Assembly: GCF_032883915.1 (NCBI RefSeq)
Contig: NZ_CP120717.1
Span: 2,053,697-2,117,696, forward strand
Source of the DNA: Endozoicomonas sp. 8E
GTDB taxonomy: Bacteria; Pseudomonadota; Gammaproteobacteria; Pseudomonadales; Endozoicomonadaceae
DNA length: 64,000 nt
Direction of reading: 5' to 3'
Shown: positions 51,548 through 64,000 of the stretch, piece after piece
Numbering within the stretch: the first letter of the stretch is position 1
How the letters are laid out: every line of letters begins with the position of its first letter
Program-made: the position numbers and the translations under genes
Notes under the pieces: generated by a model
Databases searched by the model: none
What the model was told of the DNA's origin: nothing
What the model saw: only the letters and a program-made list of their open reading frames with translations

Positions 51548-53875
51548 TCAGGCTATTAACCAGCGGGTCAGAGTGTTTTCAAGCTGCTCCTTGTTGAAAG
51601 GTTTAGCCAAATGGTCGTTCATTCCTGCATCCAGGCATTGCTTTCTGTGCTGATTCATAGCGTTGGCGGTTAAGGCTATGATGGGCGTCTCCCTGGTTGC
51701 TATCTGATCTCGTAGTCTGTGAGTGGTGGTTAACCCATCCATAACTGGCATATTGCAGTCCATCAGAATCAGGTCATAGTTTTTTTGCTGACAGGCTGCC
51801 AGACAACTCTCGCCATTATGAGCCAGCTCTACCTTATAGCCCAGCTGCTCAAGCATTCCCTCCGCCACCATTCTGTTGATGGGATTATCTTCGACGACCA
51901 GAACCGAATAATCTCTGTTTTTTGGGTGTTGGATTTTCAGGGTGTCAGGTAACGGTTGGGAGACCTGAGGACGGATAGTCCGGGTTTTCTCCAGTGCCTG
52001 GATAAACAATTTCCGGGTCAGAGGGAGTGGTAGCCAGACCAGGGTGTCCGTGCCGTTATCCAGAGGCGCATGAGCGGCATAAATCACTTTCAGTGACGGA
52101 TTATCCTGACCGGCATTTCTGGCCAGATCTTCATTTTCTGTAATCAGAATATCTGCCCAGTCGGGCAGGTCACCGATCTTGTTATTAGAGGTTTGTCGGT
52201 GGCTGATATTCCAATGCGCCAAAAGATGAGAACAACAGCTTTGCAAAGCTTCTGAGCCATCGAGCACTATCTGGTTACCCCTGATATCAGCAGAAACCGA
52301 TACTTTTTCTTCCCTTGATTTGTAACGGAATGGCAAGCGGACAGAAAATGTGCTGCCTTCTCCGGGCTCTGACATGACAGACAGTTGTCCACCCATGTTA
52401 GTGACTATGGACTGGGTCAAAGGCAGACCCATACCTGAGCCCCCGAAACGGCGACTGGTATCACTGCTGGCCTGGGCAAAGGGTTTGAATATTTCGTCCA
52501 GCGCCGATTCAGGGATACCGATACCGGTGTCACTGATGTTCAGCATAATATCAAGATGATTCCCGGTGGTTTTCTGGCAATCGAGCCAGATACGAATGTC
52601 ACCTTCATCGGTAAATTTTGCGGCATTTCCTATCAGGTTGGTCACGACCTGATGAAAACGGGTTGGGTCACCCAGGATTTCGTCTGGCAGGGTGGGATCA
52701 ATATCACAATAGATCGGAACCCCTTTGGTAAATGTGGATTGTCCTGCAAGCACCACAACATCTTCCATTGAGTTTCTGAGATCAAAAGGGATTTCTTCAA
52801 GAATCATCTTGCCCGACTCAAGTCGGGAAAGATCCAGGATATCGTTGAGCAGACGGATCAGATGACTACCAGAATCTCTGGCAATGGTTAAACGCTGATG
52901 TTGTAGTTCAGTCAGTTCGTCGTTGAGGGCAATACTCAGCATGCCCAGAACTGCATTGAGTGGTGTTCTGATTTCGTGACTCAGGCTCGACAGCTGTACG
53001 GCTCGCTGACTGGCAGTTTCCAGTGCCTGGCTGCGTGCTTTTTCAAGCTGACGGTTGGTCTTCTCAAGCGTCTGGTTGTTTTTGCGAATATCTCTGGTCC
53101 GCCGGGCAATAATGGTTTCCAGTTCAGCCAGATGTTCACGTAACTGTTCTTCAGCCAGTCGCCGGTGGTGCAGATGGTGATGAATGTTGTTCAAATAATG
53201 GTTGATAGTGCGGGTCAGCAGGCCTATCTCATCATTCTCATGCCCCTTGGGCTCCGGAAGCTGAATCTTGTTACTGTTTTCCGGGTGCTCAACCATTTTT
53301 TCTGTCATGTTCAGCAAAGGCTTGGTCAACATGTGATAAAACATGATCGACAGAACCAGTGACAGCAGGAAGGTTTTGACCAGGCCGGTCACCAGGGTAA
53401 AGATGGCCCGATCAAAAAACTGAGTGCTGATAGGGCGGGTGTCGGCAACGATTTTAAGCCAGCCGAGCGGTTCATCTTCATCAAAGGGAACCTTGAGCTC
53501 CCGAATATAGGTTCGACTGGCACCAAACAGCATATCGGTAAAGGGGCGGGCTTTATCCTGTTGCGGCTCTTTACTCACAGCGGCAAGAATTGAACCCGAT
53601 GCTTCAACAATTTCTGCCCTGACGATGGTGGGCGATTTGATGAGTCCCAACACCAGCTCGTTGGCCAGCTCTTTATCAATGTTGTAGGCAATGCGGGCAG
53701 CTGGAGTCCTGGTGATATCAATATAGGTTTCTATGGTGGCGTCAATTTGCCGGACCTGAGACCGGTAGTCGATGATCACCAGATACAGACTCAGGAACAG
53801 CCCCAGTATAAAGGCAATGACAACGGTGTTACGTGCCTGTTTGAATGACAGTCGATCCCTGAAACGGATTGGCAT
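51548..53875 (-). CDS. Hybrid sensor histidine kinase with C-terminal receiver domain
   Basis: A 775-residue membrane kinase. Two membrane segments (about 17-37 and 163-186) flank a periplasmic sensor of about 125 residues; HAMP and coiled coil follow (to about 290). HisKA has the phospho-His in SLSHEIRTPLNAVLGM; the ATPase domain has NLIGNAAKFTDEG, DTGIGIP and GGSGMGL. A degenerate receiver-like stretch (about 525-625) precedes the true receiver (VLVVEDNPINRMVAEGML, phospho-Asp in ILMDCNMPVMDG, LTANA, KPF). There is no HPt domain, so phosphate must pass to a separate HPt or regulator. Architecture is BarA-like, but BarA has a terminal HPt. No regulator gene is adjacent. Confidence 0.87.
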   Translation of the reverse strand: MPIRFRDRLSFKQARNTVVIAFILGLFLSLYLVIIDYRSQVRQIDATIETYIDITRTPAARIAYNIDKELANELVLGLIKSPTIVRAEIVEASGSILAAVSKEPQQDKARPFTDMLFGASRTYIRELKVPFDEDEPLGWLKIVADTRPISTQFFDRAIFTLVTGLVKTFLLSLVLSIMFYHMLTKPLLNMTEKMVEHPENSNKIQLPEPKGHENDEIGLLTRTINHYLNNIHHHLHHRRLAEEQLREHLAELETIIARRTRDIRKNNQTLEKTNRQLEKARSQALETASQRAVQLSSLSHEIRTPLNAVLGMLSIALNDELTELQHQRLTIARDSGSHLIRLLNDILDLSRLESGKMILEEIPFDLRNSMEDVVVLAGQSTFTKGVPIYCDIDPTLPDEILGDPTRFHQVVTNLIGNAAKFTDEGDIRIWLDCQKTTGNHLDIMLNISDTGIGIPESALDEIFKPFAQASSDTSRRFGGSGMGLPLTQSIVTNMGGQLSVMSEPGEGSTFSVRLPFRYKSREEKVSVSADIRGNQIVLDGSEALQSCCSHLLAHWNISHRQTSNNKIGDLPDWADILITENEDLARNAGQDNPSLKVIYAAHAPLDNGTDTLVWLPLPLTRKLFIQALEKTRTIRPQVSQPLPDTLKIQHPKNRDYSVLVVEDNPINRMVAEGMLEQLGYKVELAHNGESCLAACQQKNYDLILMDCNMPVMDGLTTTHRLRDQIATRETPIIALTANAMNQHRKQCLDAGMNDHLAKPFNKEQLENTLTRWLIA

Positions 53876-54047
53876 GAGAAACGCTTTATTTTAATTATTG
53901 CTCTGTGATTCGTTTTACCTGTATTTTCCTGATAGCGCAACAACAGCCCGAATCCAATCTGCTTGTTTGGGAACCTGACCTCCCGGCTTTCCCCTCATCG
54001 AGTTGTTTGTTCATGGTTTTACCTCAACTGGATACCCCGTCCTTAAG

Positions 54048-54371
54048 AGGGTGTCGCAAAACTCTGGTTCCCATGCTCCAGCGTGGGAACGAGTTGTTAA
54101 GGAAGTCGTCATTCCCGCGAAAGCGGGAATCCAGCCCCAACAGTGGGACTCCGCCTTCTCGAGGATGACAAGGCCAGGGGGGCACCGGGCAGTATGGTTC
54201 TGGTGGTGAGTCAGTGTGGATTCCCGCCTTCGCGGGAATGACGAGAATGAAGTCGGGAATGACGAGAATGAAGTCGGGAATGACGGGAGTGAAGCCGGGA
54301 ATGACGGGAGTGAAGCCGGGAATGACGGGAGTCAACTCGTTCCCACGCTGGAGAGAGTTTTGCGGCACCCT
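54048..54371. mobile_element. Inverted-repeat element, copy B (complete, 324 bp)
   Basis: It begins AGGGTGTCGCAAAACTCT and ends AGAGTTTTGCGGCACCCT, an 18 bp terminal inverted repeat with one mismatch. A second inverted pair (CAGCGTGGGAACGAG / CTCGTTCCCACGCTG) lies just inside. The core has two CCCGC/GCGGG hairpins and, at 54235-54340, five 21-base tandem units. Copy A at 11167-11438 is closely similar. With no coding capacity this resembles a MITE needing a transposase in trans. Confidence 0.75.
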
Positions 54372-54385
54372 ATTCAGGGCTGGGT

Positions 54386-57300
54386 TCAGTGACTATCATC
54401 GCCCCGTTGCCAGTTGTAGAAGGTGCCCAGAGTGTAGGAGTAAGGAATACTTTCTGCATGGGAAAACGACCATTTAGGCACATTCTCCTGGAAGTATTTC
54501 TCCCAGCCATTCTCAAATAGTTTTATGGTACGATCGCGGCGCTCGCGGAACTGCAGGTAATTTTCGTGTCGAGTCCAGCCATGTATCATGCCATTTGCCT
54601 CAACACGGTGTGTATAGGCTGCATCGGTTTCACCGAAGCGTTGAGGCGAAGCAATCTCGGTACGTATCTCATATTCAGCGTCCGTTTCACCTGCGCCTCG
54701 CCAGCGATTAATCCTGTCAAGAGTGCGGCCCAGAGGTCCACCCAGCCATTGAGTGAGCATCTTGTTGTCGTTCATAAAGAAGTCGAAAGTGAGACCCGAC
54801 GCCAGAGCAAATCCGAACGTTTGAGCACTGGTAAATCCGGATATAAGGCCATGGGTGTATGCTCCAGCGGTGGAAATGGGGCCCAGCACCAGACCCGCTG
54901 TGGCAGAGGTCAGCATTTTCATTGTTTGTGGTGTTACCCTGTGCAACAGGGGTACCTGAATCCCTTGTCCGGAGCCCATTGATTTCACTATCTCGGGCAG
55001 CAGACGCAAAATGCTGCGATACATTTGAGGGTTGGCGTTGTACTGTCTGGCAAAGAGCATAGAACCGGTTCTCAACAGAATCACTGAAGAAGCGGCTTTG
55101 CCCAATGGCATGGCCAGCCCGCCCACTTCAGAAACTTTCTCAATGCCGTTGTGGTGGGCATATTGCGCGGTGCGATCGGGATCAACACCATAGTGTTCCA
55201 GCCAGTGCTGGAAAGGTATGAGCATCCGGTGCAGGTAATCCCCTCTGTTGGTCAGATCCAGAAGGTAGAGGAACGCCATGTTGGATAGGGACAGATCGGC
55301 AGCCTGCCAGACGGTATGGGTCGCCAGCAGGGGTTTGTAACTGGTGTAGTACCAGGTGACAGCCTGTACCAGGAAGGCTGAAGGTTTGACCCAGTAATCA
55401 TTGAGCTGCCACTCAACCGCTGCAACATGAGCCAGCATCAATGTGTTATGGATTGCCTTGATCAGGTCTGATTCAGACAGGCCAGCAACATTGGCATAAG
55501 GCGTCAGGGTATCCTGAAGATTGCTCAGGAAGGCTGTCGTCCTGCGGCCATTTTCAAAGGCAATATCGTCAAGAACGTAGTTGGCGATGACCGCAGCTGC
55601 ATATTCTTTCATGCCGACAACAGACTCTTTCATACCTGCCGGGTGAGTGGCCATCACGGTCACAGGATTAAAGGCAGTCTGCATGAATTCCTCAGCTCCC
55701 TCATCAGACAGTATCCCAACAACGACTTTAAAGCGAGGCACATCGACACCGTGTGTGTAGCCAAGCAAGTGTTCAAATTCGGCCACTGCCTGATAACCAT
55801 CAACACCTCTGACGGCCTTTATATAGTTCTCAAGTTCAACTTTACTGATCAAGCCTTCCCGCAGCAGAGTAATGATCTTGTTAGCACTGGCAGAATGAGC
55901 AGCGAAGTATTCCGAGAAGCTATTCAGCTCTTCCGGTTCATGCCCGGCGAAGTCTATGGCTGTTTTACCAATCCTGCGAATTTCGTCTTTGAATGGTTGA
56001 GACCCTATTTCCATCTCGTACATGGCGTTGAGCACCATAATCTCGATTTCTTCCAGCACATCTTCGGGCTGACCTTCCGGGGGGATGACAGGGGATTTCG
56101 GAAAGCTGGTCTTCAGGCGTTTAAAACCTTCCACAATCCGACTGGCCTGTTTAAACGTCAGTTTGTCTCCGGCCATTGCCTGCAGGCGAATGGGTGCAAA
56201 TTCATCGTCAAAATTGAAAACCGAAAGAAAGGGTATGGTCTTATCGCTCTCCATTGCTGCTTCGTTCAGGCCAATTGCGGCTTCCAGAGCTCGTTTTTTG
56301 AGAGGGTGCTGCTGCATGAAGTCGTTCATATCGGTCAGCAGTTTTGCCTGTTTCTCTGAGTACTGTACGAGACTGCGGTCATTCTTGACGGCTTCTTCGG
56401 CAGCCTTCAGGACTTTTTCCATTCTCACAACGTCTGCTTTCCTGGCTTCAAGTTCAGCTTCCAGACGCATCTGAAGGGACGGTTCCTCAATCAGTTGCCG
56501 GATCTTGCCGCCAGTACCATCATCACCGCCCAGTTCTAGCTGTTTGTTTCTCAGGGCATTAATCCGTCGTTCATTGGTGTCAGAAGCGTCAGGTTTAAGA
56601 CCCACAGCTGCTTCAGTGGCTTCAAGAAGCGCGTCATGATCCGCCAGGTCCTGTTTTGCACTTAATGCAGCTTGATATTTATGATTCAGGGCTGAATTCA
56701 GCCGATCCCGATCGATTTTATCTGAGCTTGATGGGTTCCCATTGATGTTTTCATAGTCGAACATCTGCTGTTCTTTGCGAACCAGATTTTCTCGTGCAGC
56801 AACTTCTTCAGCCATTGCATTGGCTAAATCCATACTTTTCCTGTCGTGCTCATGCAGAAACTCCGTGACCTGAGCGTACATTTTTCTGGTTAAAGGCAGT
56901 TCACCTCGTATTCCATCGATTTCATCGGCTGCGGCATGAAGCGGAGTGTATGTATAGCGATCAACAGCAAGAACGTAATTAGCTTCTTGCAGCGAAGCGG
57001 GGTCGCCATGTATTGAGACTTCCAGATTTGTTTTGGCGTTCAGTTTCTCAATGATTTTATATCGTACGTCTGCACTGTACCCCAGCAGGAAATTTATGAT
57101 CTCCTCTGCTCGCTCTTTATTGGTTTGTTCGTCACCTGCAGACAGGCCCAGCTCGGTCTGAAATTTTTTCATTTCCTGATTGAGAGCGATATTACCCCGG
57201 GCATGTTGGAGAAAAATACCCATTTTGCGGTCAGCCATTTCCAGCTCATTTTCAGCTTCTCTTACTGCTCGCCTGGCTCTGGCTACCTCACGATCAAGTA

Positions 57301-60300
57301 AGTATCGGGGTTTTGGCCCCAGCCGGGCCATTTGCCTGTCAAGCTCATTCTCAATGGCTGCGACGCGCTCAGTAATGGTAGGCCAACCCAGTTTGGACAT
57401 TTCTTTGCTCAGTTTACAGAGTGTTTCTTCAATGAGATTGATCTGATCATTCACACAGGCATTATTGTTATAGCCTTCAATGTTGAGTTGATGAGCAATT
57501 TCATTGTTAACATTTCTTGATAAACCTTCATCTTCATAGCGGTGGAATACTTTTAACCTTAATTCCGGAATTCTGGACCTTAGGGCTTGCACCTGTCTTT
57601 GTAGGCCGACATCTTTTAATTCTACTTTCAGATTATCGGCCAGTTTAGCAATTAAAGCCTTGTCCCTTTTCCTGAGAGCAGCGTTATCAAACGCGTCGAT
57701 GTCCAGATTGCTCTCTAAAGCTTGAAGCATCTTATACTGTCGTCCTTTGGCTAGCTGATCTGCATCGGCAATAAGGGCATAAAGCAGGAGCTTCTGATGT
57801 TTACCTTTCCTTTTTTTGTAATCAGCAAGTCTGGTATCTTCTCTCCAGAGGGCATAATACTGCTGCTCGGTTAATTTTTTGATGACATTATTGTCATCAA
57901 GTTTTTTACGAACCCTGTCAAGTCGTTCCAGTTTGTTATCACCTTCACTGACCTGAATCCCGAGTATTTCTTCTGTGTTTTTCAGCACCTCCAGCGCTTC
58001 TTCCTCTGCCCGCTGCCCGGCCAAGTATGTCTGAATTTTCTCAGAAATGGCGTTCCGACGATCATACACATCGCCCTCGCTATCGATGTCGACCATCTTC
58101 AGGGTTTTTTCCACAGCAGTGAGTTTCCGAAGCACTTCAGGGCTGGCTTTGGGGTGGTCTGGCGTTCTGATCTCTTTCAGTTCTTTTTCTAGGCGTGCAA
58201 GACTGTGGACCACCCTGAATGCGGCTTTTTCCAGAACGTCCTGATTCTTTTCTACGCTGTTTTTACTCAGTTTAATACCAAGAATTTCTGCCAGAGCATT
58301 TTGTTTGGCTTCGGTGTAAGAATTATCTTGGCCATGCAGTGTCTCAATTCTATGTAGCAGGACATCTTGTTGAATATCCATTGTCTTGATTTTCTGAAGC
58401 ATGAGTTGTTTGTGAGCATTCATTTCCTCGATTTTTTGAAGCAGGTGTTCTTGCTGAGTGTCTACATCTGCACTGCTATCAAAATTCTGAATGTTTAAAT
58501 GTGCGGCAATGGTTGCATAGCGGGCTTTGATTGCAGCTGCTTTTCCAGCTTCTATAATGGTTCTCGGAAGAATATGTCGCTGGACCAGAGCTTCCTGCTG
58601 TTCAAGGAACTGCAGAATGGCCTGCTGACGGGTTTCCGGGGTATCTTTGTCGTCAGAAATCAGGCCGAGATTACTTTCAAGGTTTGCCAGTCTCTGCGGA
58701 GCCTCATCGTCGGCCAGGCCTGTCTTATGTTGTATATGCTGCTGAACAGACTGAAAGCGGGCAAGAAGATCGTTTTTATTGTCCGGGGTCATACCGAACT
58801 GATCTTCAACGGCTGCCAGTATTGTAATTATAATTTCATAGTCAGGCTGTTCTGTTGCAGCAAAGGTTGTGGCCAACTCCCGGGTGATTTCATGAATTTT
58901 TTTTCTGAGGAGTATGGCTTGTTCTTCTGGTGTCTGGGTATTATCCCAATTATAAATACCAAGTTCTGCTGCCGTTTCACGAAATATTTTTTCGTTTAGC
59001 TTGCCCAGTTTGGCATGTTCTATCCGCAGCTCCTCCAGGTCGTTGTGTAACTCAAAAAGCTGTCTCGCCATGTCGGTCATGACTCTGAAAGTAAACTCTT
59101 CGTCTTTCCAGAGATCGATCTGTGCTTCTTTGATATCGCCGACAACGGGTAACACTTTGCGAATATGCTGAAAAAAGTGCGGGTTCATCAGAAGATTTTT
59201 AAGTACGGGTTTGAAGCCGAAGTGTTCTAAGAGTTGCCTGTACATCCGGGTTGGCGTGATGACTAATGAAGCGATTCTGATGTGTTCTGGTGTGAACTCA
59301 AATTCACCTGATCCATACGCCTCACCTGGAGAAGCCAGCGCCAATGCCTGCTGGAGGGATTCGTAATATACAAGCGAACGCGCCGCCAGTTTATCCTCGT
59401 CTGAAAGCACCGTCAGTTGATCTTTGTCAACGTCTGCATCGTGCCGTGCAACTAACTCCTCCAGCACCGCCATCTGCTTGCTTCGAATCACGTACCGGTA
59501 GTTTTTGAGCTTGCGTTTGTTAAGCTCTGCTTTTACTTCAGGGACGGGATTATTACCCTCAGCTTCTATCCAGAATTTATAGAGCTTTTCTACGAAAGCG
59601 ACATCATCCGGATTCTGCATCAGACCATGAAAAACAATATCCTCCCCCGGAGATTCTGCTATTTCCAACTTTGGATAACCCGCAGGCACATGATAAACCC
59701 CTGTGGCATCCTCAGCGTCTACTATGTAGCCGACAGGTTTGTTGTATGCCAGTAGTTCGTTTAGAGCCTTCTGTTGTAAATCCTCTTCCAGTACATGAAC
59801 CTGGATATAGGCAGAGGCGGCAGCTGCCAGGAGAGCCTCATCATTGACAAAGAGTGATTGACCCAGACGGTGCAGTTCAGGGGGCTGATCGCCCCCAGCG
59901 ATAAGGCGCATGAAGGTACGCCCATTCACTTCAACTTTTTCAACTTCAATGGTGGCAAGGCCAACATAGTGATCATTTGAGCCAAGGTTTCCTGCTCTTT
60001 CTGCAGCGGCTTTCAAAACTTTAGCCAGTTGCAGGTGGTTGGCGATTTTCGTTAACGGTTGTAATGATGAACTCCAAACTAATTGATCACGAGCAATCTC
60101 CACGGAATCCTGATCGGTCATTCCGCCTCTGACTTCAATGACCAGTTCCTTTTCTTCAAGGTTGTGGGTGAACCTGAAGACTCCCTCATCGCCTACTTTG
60201 AGAACTTTGATATATTTCTGAGCAACGTCATTTTCGCCTGTTTCAAACTGATCAACACTGGAAACACCATCACCAATACCATAAAGAATTTCTGTAAAAC

Positions 60301-60562
60301 TCATAGTAGTAGAGACAAAGCCGTGACCCTCTGAAGGCTCATAAGGGTACGTGGTGGTAAAAGATTTGGGTATTGGCTGCTGGTCATCACCTAAAGTTGG
60401 CTGAACCATGACCTCACTACGAAGTTTCACAACATTTCCGCTGCCCAAAACATAGGCATTCGTCTGCAGTTTGCGAGCAGCCAGTGCCTCTGTATTAATG
60501 ATGGAAGAACTGATCGCAACGGCCACTGCAAGGCTTAATGCATTGTGGTGGGGATTTGTCAT
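54386..60562 (-). CDS. Giant secreted coiled-coil protein of unknown function (2058 residues)
   Basis: A 2058-residue protein with a probable signal peptide (NALSLAVAVAISSSIINTEA, cleavage near ALAA). Residues about 30-500 form a mixed domain; about 500-1480 are highly charged, helical and Leu/Glu/Lys-rich, likely coiled coil, including the landmark MARLGPKPRY at about 1085. The C-terminal 560 residues are more hydrophobic and contain AEWQLND-like and WYYTSYKPLL segments, GIEKVSEVGGLAMPLGKAAS, and Gly/Ala-rich stretches (TAGLVLGPISTAGAYTHGLI, TFGFALASGLTFDFF) that could insert into membranes. It ends FSHAESIPYSYTLG plus a short tail. No known domain recognised. A tandem paralogue lies upstream. 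A secreted toxin, adhesin or host-interaction role is possible but unproven. Confidence 0.75.
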   Translation of the reverse strand: MTNPHHNALSLAVAVAISSSIINTEALAARKLQTNAYVLGSGNVVKLRSEVMVQPTLGDDQQPIPKSFTTTYPYEPSEGHGFVSTTMSFTEILYGIGDGVSSVDQFETGENDVAQKYIKVLKVGDEGVFRFTHNLEEKELVIEVRGGMTDQDSVEIARDQLVWSSSLQPLTKIANHLQLAKVLKAAAERAGNLGSNDHYVGLATIEVEKVEVNGRTFMRLIAGGDQPPELHRLGQSLFVNDEALLAAAASAYIQVHVLEEDLQQKALNELLAYNKPVGYIVDAEDATGVYHVPAGYPKLEIAESPGEDIVFHGLMQNPDDVAFVEKLYKFWIEAEGNNPVPEVKAELNKRKLKNYRYVIRSKQMAVLEELVARHDADVDKDQLTVLSDEDKLAARSLVYYESLQQALALASPGEAYGSGEFEFTPEHIRIASLVITPTRMYRQLLEHFGFKPVLKNLLMNPHFFQHIRKVLPVVGDIKEAQIDLWKDEEFTFRVMTDMARQLFELHNDLEELRIEHAKLGKLNEKIFRETAAELGIYNWDNTQTPEEQAILLRKKIHEITRELATTFAATEQPDYEIIITILAAVEDQFGMTPDNKNDLLARFQSVQQHIQHKTGLADDEAPQRLANLESNLGLISDDKDTPETRQQAILQFLEQQEALVQRHILPRTIIEAGKAAAIKARYATIAAHLNIQNFDSSADVDTQQEHLLQKIEEMNAHKQLMLQKIKTMDIQQDVLLHRIETLHGQDNSYTEAKQNALAEILGIKLSKNSVEKNQDVLEKAAFRVVHSLARLEKELKEIRTPDHPKASPEVLRKLTAVEKTLKMVDIDSEGDVYDRRNAISEKIQTYLAGQRAEEEALEVLKNTEEILGIQVSEGDNKLERLDRVRKKLDDNNVIKKLTEQQYYALWREDTRLADYKKRKGKHQKLLLYALIADADQLAKGRQYKMLQALESNLDIDAFDNAALRKRDKALIAKLADNLKVELKDVGLQRQVQALRSRIPELRLKVFHRYEDEGLSRNVNNEIAHQLNIEGYNNNACVNDQINLIEETLCKLSKEMSKLGWPTITERVAAIENELDRQMARLGPKPRYLLDREVARARRAVREAENELEMADRKMGIFLQHARGNIALNQEMKKFQTELGLSAGDEQTNKERAEEIINFLLGYSADVRYKIIEKLNAKTNLEVSIHGDPASLQEANYVLAVDRYTYTPLHAAADEIDGIRGELPLTRKMYAQVTEFLHEHDRKSMDLANAMAEEVAARENLVRKEQQMFDYENINGNPSSSDKIDRDRLNSALNHKYQAALSAKQDLADHDALLEATEAAVGLKPDASDTNERRINALRNKQLELGGDDGTGGKIRQLIEEPSLQMRLEAELEARKADVVRMEKVLKAAEEAVKNDRSLVQYSEKQAKLLTDMNDFMQQHPLKKRALEAAIGLNEAAMESDKTIPFLSVFNFDDEFAPIRLQAMAGDKLTFKQASRIVEGFKRLKTSFPKSPVIPPEGQPEDVLEEIEIMVLNAMYEMEIGSQPFKDEIRRIGKTAIDFAGHEPEELNSFSEYFAAHSASANKIITLLREGLISKVELENYIKAVRGVDGYQAVAEFEHLLGYTHGVDVPRFKVVVGILSDEGAEEFMQTAFNPVTVMATHPAGMKESVVGMKEYAAAVIANYVLDDIAFENGRRTTAFLSNLQDTLTPYANVAGLSESDLIKAIHNTLMLAHVAAVEWQLNDYWVKPSAFLVQAVTWYYTSYKPLLATHTVWQAADLSLSNMAFLYLLDLTNRGDYLHRMLIPFQHWLEHYGVDPDRTAQYAHHNGIEKVSEVGGLAMPLGKAASSVILLRTGSMLFARQYNANPQMYRSILRLLPEIVKSMGSGQGIQVPLLHRVTPQTMKMLTSATAGLVLGPISTAGAYTHGLISGFTSAQTFGFALASGLTFDFFMNDNKMLTQWLGGPLGRTLDRINRWRGAGETDAEYEIRTEIASPQRFGETDAAYTHRVEANGMIHGWTRHENYLQFRERRDRTIKLFENGWEKYFQENVPKWSFSHAESIPYSYTLGTFYNWQRGDDSH

Positions 60563-60771
60563 TCTGCTACCTCAGAGCTGAGTGCTTTTGTTACCTTGAA
60601 AAGTGATTGCCATACCTGGAGAGGAAGCACATTACAACGGTTCATGGCCGTCAATCGCTCATGGTTGTTCCGGTAAGCTGTTGAGTGAATCTAGTTCAAA
60701 GTGAAGAATCCGCCAGAAGCGAACTCAGTTCGCAGTGGTAAAGCCCAATGCCCGTATAATTGAGTGATTTT
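60563..60771. other. Short spacer between the two giant paralogues
   Basis: A 209-base spacer without a gene. It should hold the promoter of the downstream giant gene; GAGGTAGCAGA lies just before that ATG on the minus strand. No strong terminator was found for the upstream paralogue, so read-through is possible. Confidence 0.4.
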
Positions 60772-63700
60772 TCAGGGAAGGAATGCATTCATGGCTATGG
60801 AGGCTTCCTCAGGCACTTCAGTCCCTGACTCGAATAAAGCACCCAGAGTGTAGGAATAAGGAATACTTTCTGCATGAGAAAATGACCATTTAGGCACATT
60901 CTCCCTGAAGTATTTTTCCCAGCTATTCTCGAACATCTTCATGGTGCGATCACGGCGCTCACGGAACTGCAGATAATTTTCATGTCGAGTCCAGCCATAC
61001 ATCGTTTTGCTCGCTTTAACACGGTGTGTATAGGCTTCATCGGTTTCATTGAAGCGTTGAGGCGAGGCAATAGCGGTACGTTTCACAAATTCATCTTGCG
61101 TTTCACCCAGGCCTGTCCAGCGATTCATCTTGTCAAGACTGCGGCCCAGAGGTCCACCCAGCCATTGAGTGAGCATCTTGTTGTCGTTCATTAAGAAGTC
61201 GAAAGTGAGACTCGACGCCAGAGCGAATCCGAAGGTTTGAGCATAGGTGAATCCGGATATAAGGCCATGGGCGTAAGCTCCGACGGTGGAAATTGGGCCC
61301 AGCATGAGACCGGCTGTGGCGGAGGCCAGTATTTTCATTGTTTGTGGTGTTACCCTGTGCAACAGGGGTACCTGAATCCCTTGTCCGGAGCCCATTGATT
61401 TCACTATCTCGGGCACCAGACGCAAAATGCTGCGATACATTTGAGGGTTGGCGTTGTACTGTCTGGCAAAGAGCATAGAACCGGTTCTCAACAGAATCAC
61501 TGAAGAAGCGGCCTTGCCCAATGGCATGGCCAGTCCGCCCACTTCAGAAACTTTCTCAATGCCGTTGTGGTGGGCATATTGCGCGGTTCGATCGGGATCA
61601 ACACCATAGTGTTCCAGCCAGTGCTGGAAAGGTATGAGCATCCGGTGCAGGTAATCACCCCTGCTGGTCAGATCCAGAAGGTAGAGGAACGCCATGTTTG
61701 ACAGGGATAGCTCGGCAGCCTGCCAGCCGGTATAAGTCACCAGTAGCGGTTTGTAGCTGGAGAAGTACCAGGTGACAGCCTGTACCAGGAAGGCTGAAGG
61801 TTTGACCCAGTAATCATTGAGCTGCCACTCAACCGCTGCGACCTGAGCCTGCATCAATGTGCTATGGATTGCCTTGATGAGGTCTGATTCAGACAGGCCG
61901 GCAACATTGGCATAAGCTGTCAGGGTATCCTGAATATTGCTCAGAAATGCTGCCGTCCTGCGGCCATTTTCAAAGGCAATATCGTCAAGAACGTAGTTGG
62001 CGATGACCGCAGCTGCGTACTCTTTCATGCCGTCAACAGACTCTCTTATACCTGTCTGGTGAGTGGCCGCCACGGTCACAGGATTAAAGGCAGTCTGCAT
62101 GAATTCATCAACCCCCTCATCAGACAGTATTCCGACAACGACTTTGAAGCGAGGCACGTCGACACCGTGCTTGTAGCCAAGCAAGTGTTCAAATTCGTCC
62201 ACTGTCTGATAACCATCAACACCTCTGACGGCCTTTATATAGTTCTCAAGTTCAACCTTGCTGATCGAGCCTTCCCGCAGCAGAGTAATGATCTTGTTAG
62301 CACTGGCAGAATGGGTAGCGAAGTATTCCGAAAAGCTTTCCAGATCCTCAGGTTCATGCTCGACGAAGTGAATGTCTGTTTTGCCCATGGCGCGAATTTC
62401 GTCCTTGAATGGTTGAGACCCTATTTCCATCTCATACATGGCATTGAGCACCAGAATATCAACTTCATCCAGCGCATCCTCGGGCTGATCATACAGGGGC
62501 TGGACAGGGTATTTCGGAAAGGTGGTCTTCAGGCTCTTAAAAACTTCCACAATCCGACTGGCCTGTTTAAATGTCACTTTGTCGTCGGCGTTTGCCTGTA
62601 CGCGAATGGATGCAAATTCATCGTCAAAATTGAAAACCGGAAGAAATGGCATTCCCTTATCGCTCTCCATTGTTGCCAGGTGCAGGCCAATTGCGGCTTC
62701 CATAGCTTGTTTTTTGAGAGGGTGCTGCTGCATGAAGTCCTTGATATCGGTCAGAAGTTTTGCCTGTTTCGATGAGTACCGGAAGGGACCACCGTCATTT
62801 TCGACGGCTTCCTCTGCAGCTCTCAGGACTTCCCTTAATATCTCTAATTCCGCTTTTTTGCCCTCCGCTTCTCTTTTCAGACTCTGCTGTTTCCGTGTCA
62901 GTTGCAGAATCTTGCCGCCAAAACCATCATCCCCACCCAGTTCCAGCTGTCTGTTTCTCAGGGCATCAATCCGGGCGTCATGGGAAGCAGTGGAGTCTGG
63001 CTTAAGACCCAGATTATTTTCAATGGCTTTAAGACTTGCTTCATGATCCTCCAGAGTTTCCAGTGCTTTTGATATTTTTACTTTTTTCTGTTCCGGGACT
63101 AAGTCCGGTATTTCTTTATTGTGTTCAAGATTGGTTTTAGGTTTCGGATCTATGTCTTTGGAGTTGTCAATCTCATGCAGGAATTGTGTAACCTGAATGT
63201 ACTTTCTCCTGGTTTCTGGCAATTCACCCTCTGCGTGATTGACTTTATCCTTACCATGAGACGCTTGATAGTCTCTAATGGCATTAATGTAATTAGCTCC
63301 TTCTAAATGATTATCATAGTCAAACTCAAAAGGGATTTTCACGGCGTTAATGATAGTGTTCAGTTGATGAATGAGGTCAACCCGTTTTTCTGCATAGTAT
63401 TCGCTTTCCTGAAGAAAACGTTCGATGTCGTTTAATAGGTCTTCAGGGGTTTGATTATCATTCTGTGTCAGGCCAAACCTGACATGAATGTCTTTCAGTG
63501 ACTTATTGAGAGCCGTAATGTAACTATCTCTGTCAGTGGGGACGTCAGTAGAATCTGCCAATACCTCCTGTTTACGATCAACAGCAGCCAGTTTGCGATG
63601 AAGTTCCTCCAGCTCAGTTTCAGCTTCTTCTATGCTTCCTTGCGCTCTGGCCAGCTCTTGATCAAGAACGTATCGGGGCTTAGGTCCCAGACGAGCCATT

Positions 63701-64000
63701 TGCCTGTCAAGCTCATTCTCAATGGCTGCAATGCGCTCATTAACATCGGGCTGACCCGCATTGAAAACCTCTTTATCCAGCCGCTCGAGTGTCGCTGCAA
63801 TCAGACGGTTCTGGTTTTTGAGAGGAGCATCTTCTTTATAATTCTCAATGTTGAGTTGACGAGCTATTTCATTGTTTCTATCTCTTTTGACACTTTCATG
63901 GTTATAGAGTTCGCCTGCTTCATCCGTTAATAACCAAATTTTGGTACTTAGAGCATCCTTTTTTTCATCCAGGCTGGCATCTTTTCTAAATTTTACTTTC
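60772..64000 (-). CDS. Second giant coiled-coil protein, paralogue of its neighbour (partial, 5' end beyond window)
   Basis: The frame is open from 60772 to the right edge (about 1075 codons), so the start is outside the window; the ATG at 63699 is internal, since the upstream codons (NNEIARQLNIENYKED, NERIAAIENELDRQ) match the neighbouring paralogue. It shares MARLGPKPRY, the charged helical region and the hydrophobic C-terminal part ending FSHAESIPYSYTLGA, then differs in the last 25 residues. Similarity is highest in the C-terminal 550 residues and drops in the coiled coil, which is shorter here. Function unknown. Confidence 0.75.
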   Translation of the reverse strand, partial: KVKFRKDASLDEKKDALSTKIWLLTDEAGELYNHESVKRDRNNEIARQLNIENYKEDAPLKNQNRLIAATLERLDKEVFNAGQPDVNERIAAIENELDRQMARLGPKPRYVLDQELARAQGSIEEAETELEELHRKLAAVDRKQEVLADSTDVPTDRDSYITALNKSLKDIHVRFGLTQNDNQTPEDLLNDIERFLQESEYYAEKRVDLIHQLNTIINAVKIPFEFDYDNHLEGANYINAIRDYQASHGKDKVNHAEGELPETRRKYIQVTQFLHEIDNSKDIDPKPKTNLEHNKEIPDLVPEQKKVKISKALETLEDHEASLKAIENNLGLKPDSTASHDARIDALRNRQLELGGDDGFGGKILQLTRKQQSLKREAEGKKAELEILREVLRAAEEAVENDGGPFRYSSKQAKLLTDIKDFMQQHPLKKQAMEAAIGLHLATMESDKGMPFLPVFNFDDEFASIRVQANADDKVTFKQASRIVEVFKSLKTTFPKYPVQPLYDQPEDALDEVDILVLNAMYEMEIGSQPFKDEIRAMGKTDIHFVEHEPEDLESFSEYFATHSASANKIITLLREGSISKVELENYIKAVRGVDGYQTVDEFEHLLGYKHGVDVPRFKVVVGILSDEGVDEFMQTAFNPVTVAATHQTGIRESVDGMKEYAAAVIANYVLDDIAFENGRRTAAFLSNIQDTLTAYANVAGLSESDLIKAIHSTLMQAQVAAVEWQLNDYWVKPSAFLVQAVTWYFSSYKPLLVTYTGWQAAELSLSNMAFLYLLDLTSRGDYLHRMLIPFQHWLEHYGVDPDRTAQYAHHNGIEKVSEVGGLAMPLGKAASSVILLRTGSMLFARQYNANPQMYRSILRLVPEIVKSMGSGQGIQVPLLHRVTPQTMKILASATAGLMLGPISTVGAYAHGLISGFTYAQTFGFALASSLTFDFLMNDNKMLTQWLGGPLGRSLDKMNRWTGLGETQDEFVKRTAIASPQRFNETDEAYTHRVKASKTMYGWTRHENYLQFRERRDRTMKMFENSWEKYFRENVPKWSFSHAESIPYSYTLGALFESGTEVPEEASIAMNAFLP

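Follow-up and report, generated by a model that had tools for sequence, protein, structure and literature searches.

A tandem array of 57 genes for giant, apparently exported proteins in Endozoicomonas sp. 8E, a subset of them with endoplasmic reticulum retrieval-like ends

The chromosome of Endozoicomonas sp. 8E (one contig, 7,377,917 bp) carries a tandem array of 57 long genes on one strand, of which copies 1 and 2, counted along the forward strand, lie at the right end of the 64,000-nucleotide stretch analysed here (chromosome positions 2,053,697-2,117,696, hereafter the window). The genes apparently encode large exported proteins of an unrecognised, undescribed family, which seems to have expanded from a single gene at a single site into a recombining array, and the copies are under purifying selection. 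We give about an even chance to the reading that the array supplies exported proteins for contact with the host, reassorted by recombination, and directs some of them to the host secretory pathway. Endozoicomonas, whose dealings with host cells are poorly understood, commonly occurs as a partner of corals. A single undescribed family that takes up this share of the genome (4.8%) and is both under selection and reshuffled makes a strong candidate for the interface with the host.

Results

An array of 57 large genes on one strand

A scan for open reading frames in the fetched 2.10-2.50 Mb of the chromosome, in which copies were selected as frames of more than 1000 amino acids, gave 57 copies on one strand between 2,108,082 and 2,463,967. 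The array spans 356 kilobases (kb), amounts to 4.8% of the chromosome and is 94% coding, with a G+C content of 48.2% against 49-50% in the flanks. The copies are 1113-3343 amino acids long (median 1941, 111,292 residues in total) and are separated by gaps with a median of 142 bp, with a 4-bp overlap in three pairs. The initial annotation, made from the letters of the window, had described a tandem pair: the two giant same-strand genes are there as described, though as copies 1 and 2 of 57 and not as a pair, the 55 further copies lying beyond base 64000, where it had suggested looking. Its reading of the first gene as a protein of 2058 residues with a signal peptide agrees with the open frame and its signal-peptide-like start. 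The second, for which it gave at least 1075 residues, has 1075 open codons up to the window edge (60772-63999, minus strand) and continues to 1910 residues, with a signal-peptide-like start of its own. Its view that the genes represent a large genomic investment also holds, given the share of the chromosome that they occupy.

When the C-terminal module common to the copies (C-module, described below) was used as a 1-kb DNA query, the matches all fell within 2.108-2.451 Mb (40 scored of 73 candidates), and those listed from a protein search, which are part of 216 pieces, all lay within 2.108-2.464 Mb on the same strand; among these matches, there was no copy outside 2.10-2.50 Mb. Five of the listed C-module protein matches read through a stop in the tail region. 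A profile search of the 56 gaps found one C-module remnant, a short one, which shares its gap with a 7.9-kb insert.

Protein layout and family searches

Each copy has a signal-peptide-like start, an N-terminal domain (N-domain) of about 525 amino acids, a charged arm that varies in length and a C-module of about 667 amino acids, and the N-domain and C-module lie within a single open frame in all 57 copies. The common start, MTNARPNALSLAVAIAISSSIIxTQALADRRLQ, looks by eye like a classical Sec signal peptide, with a hydrophobic core and an ALA-type site. The N-domain is conserved to about residue 460, with a mean pairwise identity of 58% in the 8E genome, and the C-module is the best conserved part of the protein. 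A motif of about 32 amino acids recurs in the arm, 0-11 times per protein and 168 times over the 57 copies, and its number tracks protein length (Spearman 0.75). Cysteine is rare throughout. The features by which the initial annotation had linked its two genes (MARLGPKPRY, a charged middle region and FSHAESIPYSYTLG) were all located in both; over the whole array, MARLGPKPRY is exact in 11 of 57 copies and FSHAESIPYSYTLG in 23 of 57. MARLGPKPRY was also considered as a gene start and rejected, being a mid-protein motif.

The hydrophobic C-terminal part had been proposed to insert into membranes as a pore. In copy 1, the signal peptide is the only 19-residue window above 1.3 on the Kyte-Doolittle scale, and a window above 1.6 outside residues 1-40 occurs in four of the 57 copies, with a maximum of 1.68; three of these four windows are borderline (1.61-1.68) and lie in the C-module. 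The hydropathy profile hence gives little support for membrane insertion, and pore or toxin activity of the array proteins is unsupported. Structure prediction of the C-module with a fold search, suggested in the same annotation, did not bring an assignment, as the hydrophobic part was modelled with a predicted local distance difference test score (pLDDT) below 50 and had no meaningful PDB match. The N-domain model consists mostly of helices with short strands (mean pLDDT 66.7), with no PDB match at E<=0.001.

That the family is an unrecognised one, as first annotated, agrees with the searches: among the scanned proteins, there was no convincing single-domain match in Pfam, NCBIfam, PHROGs, PADLOC (copy 1 only) or the PDB sequences. 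RTX repeats, a TPS (FhaB/CdiA) domain or an autotransporter barrel had no Pfam or NCBIfam match at E<=1 in the 2058-residue protein and the 1075-residue fragment, nor a Pfam match at E<=0.1 in the product of the single gene of E. arenosclerae ab112 (see below), a 3206-residue copy and the members of sets A3 and A4, and no surface-anchoring family was found in the scanned members. PF10076 (Phage Mu gp48) scored 98.1 bits on the ab112 product (E 5.6e-28, gathering score 37.4) with no individually significant stretch, and stayed below the gathering score on the 3206-residue copy (25 bits) and on copy 1 (22.8 bits, E 9e-05); phrog_521 (tail; E 2.7e-24) and phrog_9869 (E 6.8e-08) matched the ab112 product, again with no individually significant stretch. 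We read the PF10076 and phrog_521 scores as repeat effects, in which weak matches add up. A composition effect is one possibility, a likeness of the arm repeat to a phage baseplate helix pair another, and the arm may conceivably be remotely related to PF10076 and phrog_521. TMP-TENI, which matched 19 of 35 N-domains (best E 0.0011; copy 1 at 13.2 bits against a cut-off of 27), was set aside as weak. No publication describing the array was found by title and abstract start in searches for it and for bacterial KDEL-like effectors, which left subscription journals and preprints mostly outside their scope.

Purifying selection and module shuffling

The median pairwise ratio of nonsynonymous to synonymous substitution rates (dN/dS) is 0.35 for the C-module (dS 0.44) and 0.55 for the N-domain (dS 0.56), over 1596 pairs each. 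At such synonymous distances (median dS 0.44-0.56), the frames, with a median of 1941 codons, all keep both conserved parts; together with a dN/dS well under 1, a second large array in another species and gaps that contain one short remnant, although copies were selected above 1000 amino acids, this makes it highly improbable that the array is a neutral or selfish tandem amplification in which most copies are functionless. The tandem arrangement, tails of nine residues or fewer in 10 of the 57 copies, tail-like DNA past the stop in some and the split copies in a related genome (G026, see below) would all fit such an amplification.

The distances between copies in the N-domain and in the C-module are uncorrelated (57 copies, Mantel r -0.085, p 0.88), whereas the controls within each domain are correlated (N1-N2 0.225, with 0 of 500 permutations as high; C1-C2 0.281, p 0.004). 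In Endozoicomonas sp. ISHI1, which carries the second large array, the corresponding value is 0.066 (p 0.17), with controls of 0.387 and 0.38, and the second half of the N-domain is weakly correlated with the first half of the C-module (0.175, p 0.018). In 8E, the N-domain and the C-module point to the same nearest neighbour in only seven of the 57 copies. The uncorrelated histories of the two domains imply that the modules have been shuffled. Many N-domain types are common to 8E and another species: the nearest C-module relative lies within the 8E genome for 56 of 57 copies, and the nearest N-domain relative is in ISHI1 for 22 of 57. Hence, many N-types seem to predate the species split and the C-modules look homogenised, at least in the 8E genome.

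This layout also bears on the possibility of a polymorphic toxin or interbacterial weapon array, which the large size, common framework and variable parts of the proteins would suit. In polymorphic toxins, the conserved side is N-terminal and the variable side C-terminal; the layout here is the reverse, with the best conserved part at the C-terminus and the variation in the N-terminal and central parts. Since the median gap of 142 bp also leaves little room for immunity genes, and PADLOC (on copy 1) and Pfam indicate no such toxin, we consider this explanation very unlikely.

Relatives and the chromosomal site

Profiles of the two conserved parts both match the same four of 37 Endozoicomonadaceae genomes (8 genera), all of one genus. 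The census gives 57 members in 8E, 36 in ISHI1, 16 (including split pieces) in G026 and one in E. arenosclerae ab112. Five of these 110 are partial (four G026 pieces, and one ISHI1 copy that runs off the end of the retrieved DNA), and 107 members have a complete C-module (57, 35, 14 and 1, respectively). Among 369 genomes drawn from the class, the 8E genome was the sole match; 45 pattern matches on viral contigs included no relative, a plasmid search with the C-module of copy 1 gave no match, and on GTDB contigs the matches were limited to ISHI1 and ab112. Strain ab112 comes from a sponge. The source of ISHI1 is the coral Acropora tenuis (PMC9743535). In the short-read assembly of ISHI1, a 186-kb contig is mostly array, so that large arrays are not solely an artefact of long reads.

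In 8E, the array sits between a hybrid histidine kinase gene and V-type ATPase (V-ATPase) genes, all named by eye. In two genomes without the family, G025 and G024, the same kinase and V-ATPase neighbours are 478 and 589 bp apart; ab112 has one family gene of 3149 amino acids at the site (L063:3440-12886), and G026 has four members there and two more clusters elsewhere. ISHI1 retains the V-ATPase flank and has no close copy of the kinase. The simplest reading of this series, from empty sites in G025 and G024 to one gene in ab112, four in G026 and 57 in 8E, is a single-gene origin with expansion in place, though genes may instead have been lost from an array. A small acidic, signal-peptide-like frame (e.g., MLPYLSLIPTLTLALVILIPSTARSHDEADGEF...) was seen by eye at the empty site of G025 and G024 (L123/L124), and a frame of the same kind was seen by eye beside the single gene in ab112 (L090). 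The ISHI1 contigs beside the array (L075, L087) hold other signal-peptide-like families, some of which end in a C2H2-like CxxC...HxxxxH.

Retrieval-like C-terminal ends

The C-module is followed by a tail of 5 to 279 residues. The tail of the ab112 protein is long, Thr-rich and acidic and ends DEDWGDDEDIHDEL, and the copies on the V-ATPase side keep an ab112-like tail, which ends NTHNEL in ISHI1 and NPRDEL in 8E; RDEL, HDEL and variants, which resemble addresses for the endoplasmic reticulum (ER), often follow an acidic tail. Ends of the form [KRHQSA][DENQ]EL, the PROSITE pattern for ER retrieval, occur in 24 of the 107 C-complete members (12 of 57 in 8E, 11 of 35 in ISHI1, the single ab112 protein and 0 of 14 in G026), and 14 have a strict [KRH]DEL end (10 in 8E, 3 in ISHI1, 1 in ab112). 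None of 252 background frames, from 20 scattered 20-kb stretches and the window left of the array, has a PROSITE-type end, and copies 1 and 2 of the window both lack one.

At the DNA level, CRYGAYGARYTNTRA, a pattern for [RH]DE[L/F]-stop with CGY and CAY codons only, matched the 8E genome 11 times, against two for the reversed-pattern control. Of these, ten mark the ends of array genes, and the remaining one terminates an 8-codon frame. HDEF is the end of calumenin, and a literature search for HDEF found nothing. An enrichment of lysine (KDEL) ends was rejected, with five matches against five in the control in the 8E genome. Across nine relatives, with ISHI1 among them, the [RH]DE[L/F]-stop pattern is near the control (26 versus 19 in total). 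In a comparison of 30 tails, the last two codons differ between pairs 226 times synonymously and 56 times nonsynonymously, as against 320 and 3685 for codons -5 to -16. When copies were anchored on a conserved block past the stop, so that the ending was not presupposed, all 23 in-frame copies ended xxE[L/F]; the other matches to this block were two copies with a relic past the stop and a 26th (copy 30) that looked spurious. HDEL, KDEL and RDEL bind the KDEL receptor (PMC8248988), and HNEL, RNEL and SDEL do not occur in the text of the same paper.

These ends have to be weighed against a quite different role, in which the proteins would be surface or periplasmic fibres anchored by the C-module and forming a variable coat or adhesin layer, with no intracellular address and the xDEL end a leftover of the acidic tail; the layer would serve in something like antigenic variation or in aggregation. 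Such a coat is a real possibility, though short of probable: a signal peptide, an arm with repeats, a conserved C-module and recombination are in keeping with large surface proteins such as Giant1-5 of Apilactobacillus kunkeei (PMC12863079), and the majority of members are without an xDEL end. However, the scanned proteins contain no surface-anchoring, TPS, autotransporter or RTX family, the [RH]DE[L/F] gene ends of the 8E genome are, for the codons searched, confined to the array (the one match elsewhere not being a gene end), and E[L/F] is kept by every in-frame tail (23 of 23).

Several results weigh against a host-contact repertoire that is partly directed to the host secretory pathway. 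The tail is missing from most of the family, with 83 of the 107 C-complete members, both window copies included, lacking a PROSITE-type end, and from all G026 members, so that it is not a general function of the family. The pair differences among tails are not independent, the 30 tails were picked by a pattern demanding E at -2, codons -3 and -4 differ mostly nonsynonymously (492 versus 59 synonymous pair differences), and in three of the 30 the residue at -3 is G, H or S, which the PROSITE pattern does not allow. DNA identity is 0.79 between the last codon and the sixth base beyond the stop and 0.56 over the following 12 bases, and given the common ancestry of the tail copies and the conserved DNA past the stop, the ending partly reflects shared descent. 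For ISHI1, the strict DNA pattern barely exceeds its control (five versus three), and of its five matches two are array gene ends and one is untranslated DNA past the stop of an array copy; the pattern stays near the control there because the tails are mostly HNEL, RNEL, SDEL or QDEL. The ISHI1 side of the nearest-relative comparison is weaker as well (nearest relative within ISHI1 for 23 of 35 C-modules and 19 of 35 N-domains), no fold is assignable from the predicted models of the C-module and N-domain, and the type II secretion route, by which we would have the proteins leave the cell, is an assumption.

Features in and around the window

The coordinates of the features are collected in Table 1. 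Most copies are preceded by about 45 conserved leader bases, which include a GAGGT resembling a ribosome-binding site; the same leader is found ahead of the single E. arenosclerae gene. A scan of window positions 60400-60900 found no promoter-like site, and terminator-like sites numbered one against 0.5 expected. A 15-bp motif, CAGCCATGAGCGATT (up to two mismatches), occurs at 45 intergenic and two coding places in the array, with a single occurrence in the roughly 44 kb of flanking DNA, and is possibly a recombination or regulatory repeat. The array is split at 2202359-2210300 by the unrelated 7.9-kb insert, whose frames resemble, by eye, a REP/IS200-type transposase (328 amino acids) and a RecF/AAA ATPase (394 amino acids). 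Immediately downstream of the last gene of the array, a low-complexity repeat lies at window positions 54024-54368, with VIPGF/VIPDF, PREGG and PAKAGIH in its translation.

Table 1. Window coordinates of the array copies, their parts and the flanking kinase gene (aa, amino acids)
Feature	Position	Strand	Remarks
Array copy 1	54386..60562 (= G000:C1:2108082-2114258)	-	2058 aa; last gene in transcription order
Signal peptide of copy 1 (MTNPHHNALSLAVAVAISSSIINTEALA)	60479..60562	-	Ala-Leu-Ala before the inferred cut; by eye; conserved across the 57 copies
N-domain of copy 1	58988..60562	-	About 525 aa; alpha/beta in the model; varies from copy to copy
Charged arm of copy 1	56429..58987	-	3 recognised copies of the ~32-aa motif (AAQLGIDDWDDTAPIEEQARLIREKIQEI)
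C-module of copy 1	54428..56428	-	667 aa, ends ...WSFSHAESIPYSYTL
C-terminal tail of copy 1 (GTFYNWQRGDDSH)	54389..54427	-	Without an ER-retrieval-like end
Leader of copy 1	60563..60622	-	Like the array consensus (...AATCACTTTTCACGGTAATAAAAGTACTCAGCTCTGAGGTAGTAGA then ATG)
Array copy 2	60772..64000, on to 66504	-	1910 aa from the conserved start; cut by the window edge; tail GALFESGTEVPEEASIAMNAFLP
C-module of copy 2	60814..62811	-	84% identical to copy 1
Hybrid histidine kinase, left flank	51548..53875	-	775 aa, named by eye

Discussion

In the reading that we prefer, in which recombination diversifies a set of exported proteins that contact the host, Sec would carry the proteins across the inner membrane and type II secretion probably across the outer one. 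The initial annotation had suggested looking for a secretion system, and the type II secretin GspD (TIGR02517) does score over its curated cut-off, twice in each of the four genomes searched, 8E included, in a search aimed at GspD alone. The C-module would be the common working or anchoring part, and the N-domain and arm the diversified part in contact with the host, with shuffling renewing the combinations. The KDEL receptor would bring to the host ER, or retain there, any members with an RDEL- or HDEL-type end that enter the host endomembrane lumen, and the tail-less members would act outside the ER, for example in the symbiont vacuole or at the cell surface. More specifically, and rather less likely than not to hold in full, we tentatively propose that the array is a library of exported giant proteins on about one twentieth of the genome whose ER-tagged subset presents variable arms inside the host ER or secretory pathway, so as, for instance, to keep, tether or tune secretory compartments of the host around the bacterium. 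Functional ER-type tails would mean that an animal symbiont directs proteins to the ER of its host on a large scale. The array also offers a bacterial case for the study of domain shuffling and gene conversion, with a constant module set against a variable one.

Cholera toxin, heat-labile enterotoxin and Pseudomonas exotoxin A use the host KDEL receptor. The array proteins resemble these toxins in being Sec-exported (here by prediction) and in having a C-terminal KDEL-like signal, and differ from them in that no catalytic domain was identified, that they form a large paralogous array instead of a single toxin and that retrieval is predicted. Within the same genus, eukaryotic-like effectors with RING, SOCS, IAP, ephrin and MATH domains are described in PMC9743535, strain ISHI1 being among those covered. 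In contrast to these effectors, the scanned members of the array family show no eukaryotic-type domain, and the words hypothetical, paralog- and duplicat- are absent from the main text of that paper.

The closest published parallel that we found is the Giant1-5 cluster of Apilactobacillus kunkeei (PMC12863079). Like the array, it consists of consecutive genes for giant extracellular proteins in an animal symbiont, takes up several percent of the genome and is diversified by intragenic recombination. Giant1-5, from a lactic acid bacterium, are five genes for proteins of 3,000-8,000 amino acids, of which four have a beta-solenoid N-domain (PMC12863079), whereas the array, compared by description, has 57 genes for proteins of 1,100-3,300 amino acids with helix-rich models and, in some members, ER-retrieval-type ends.

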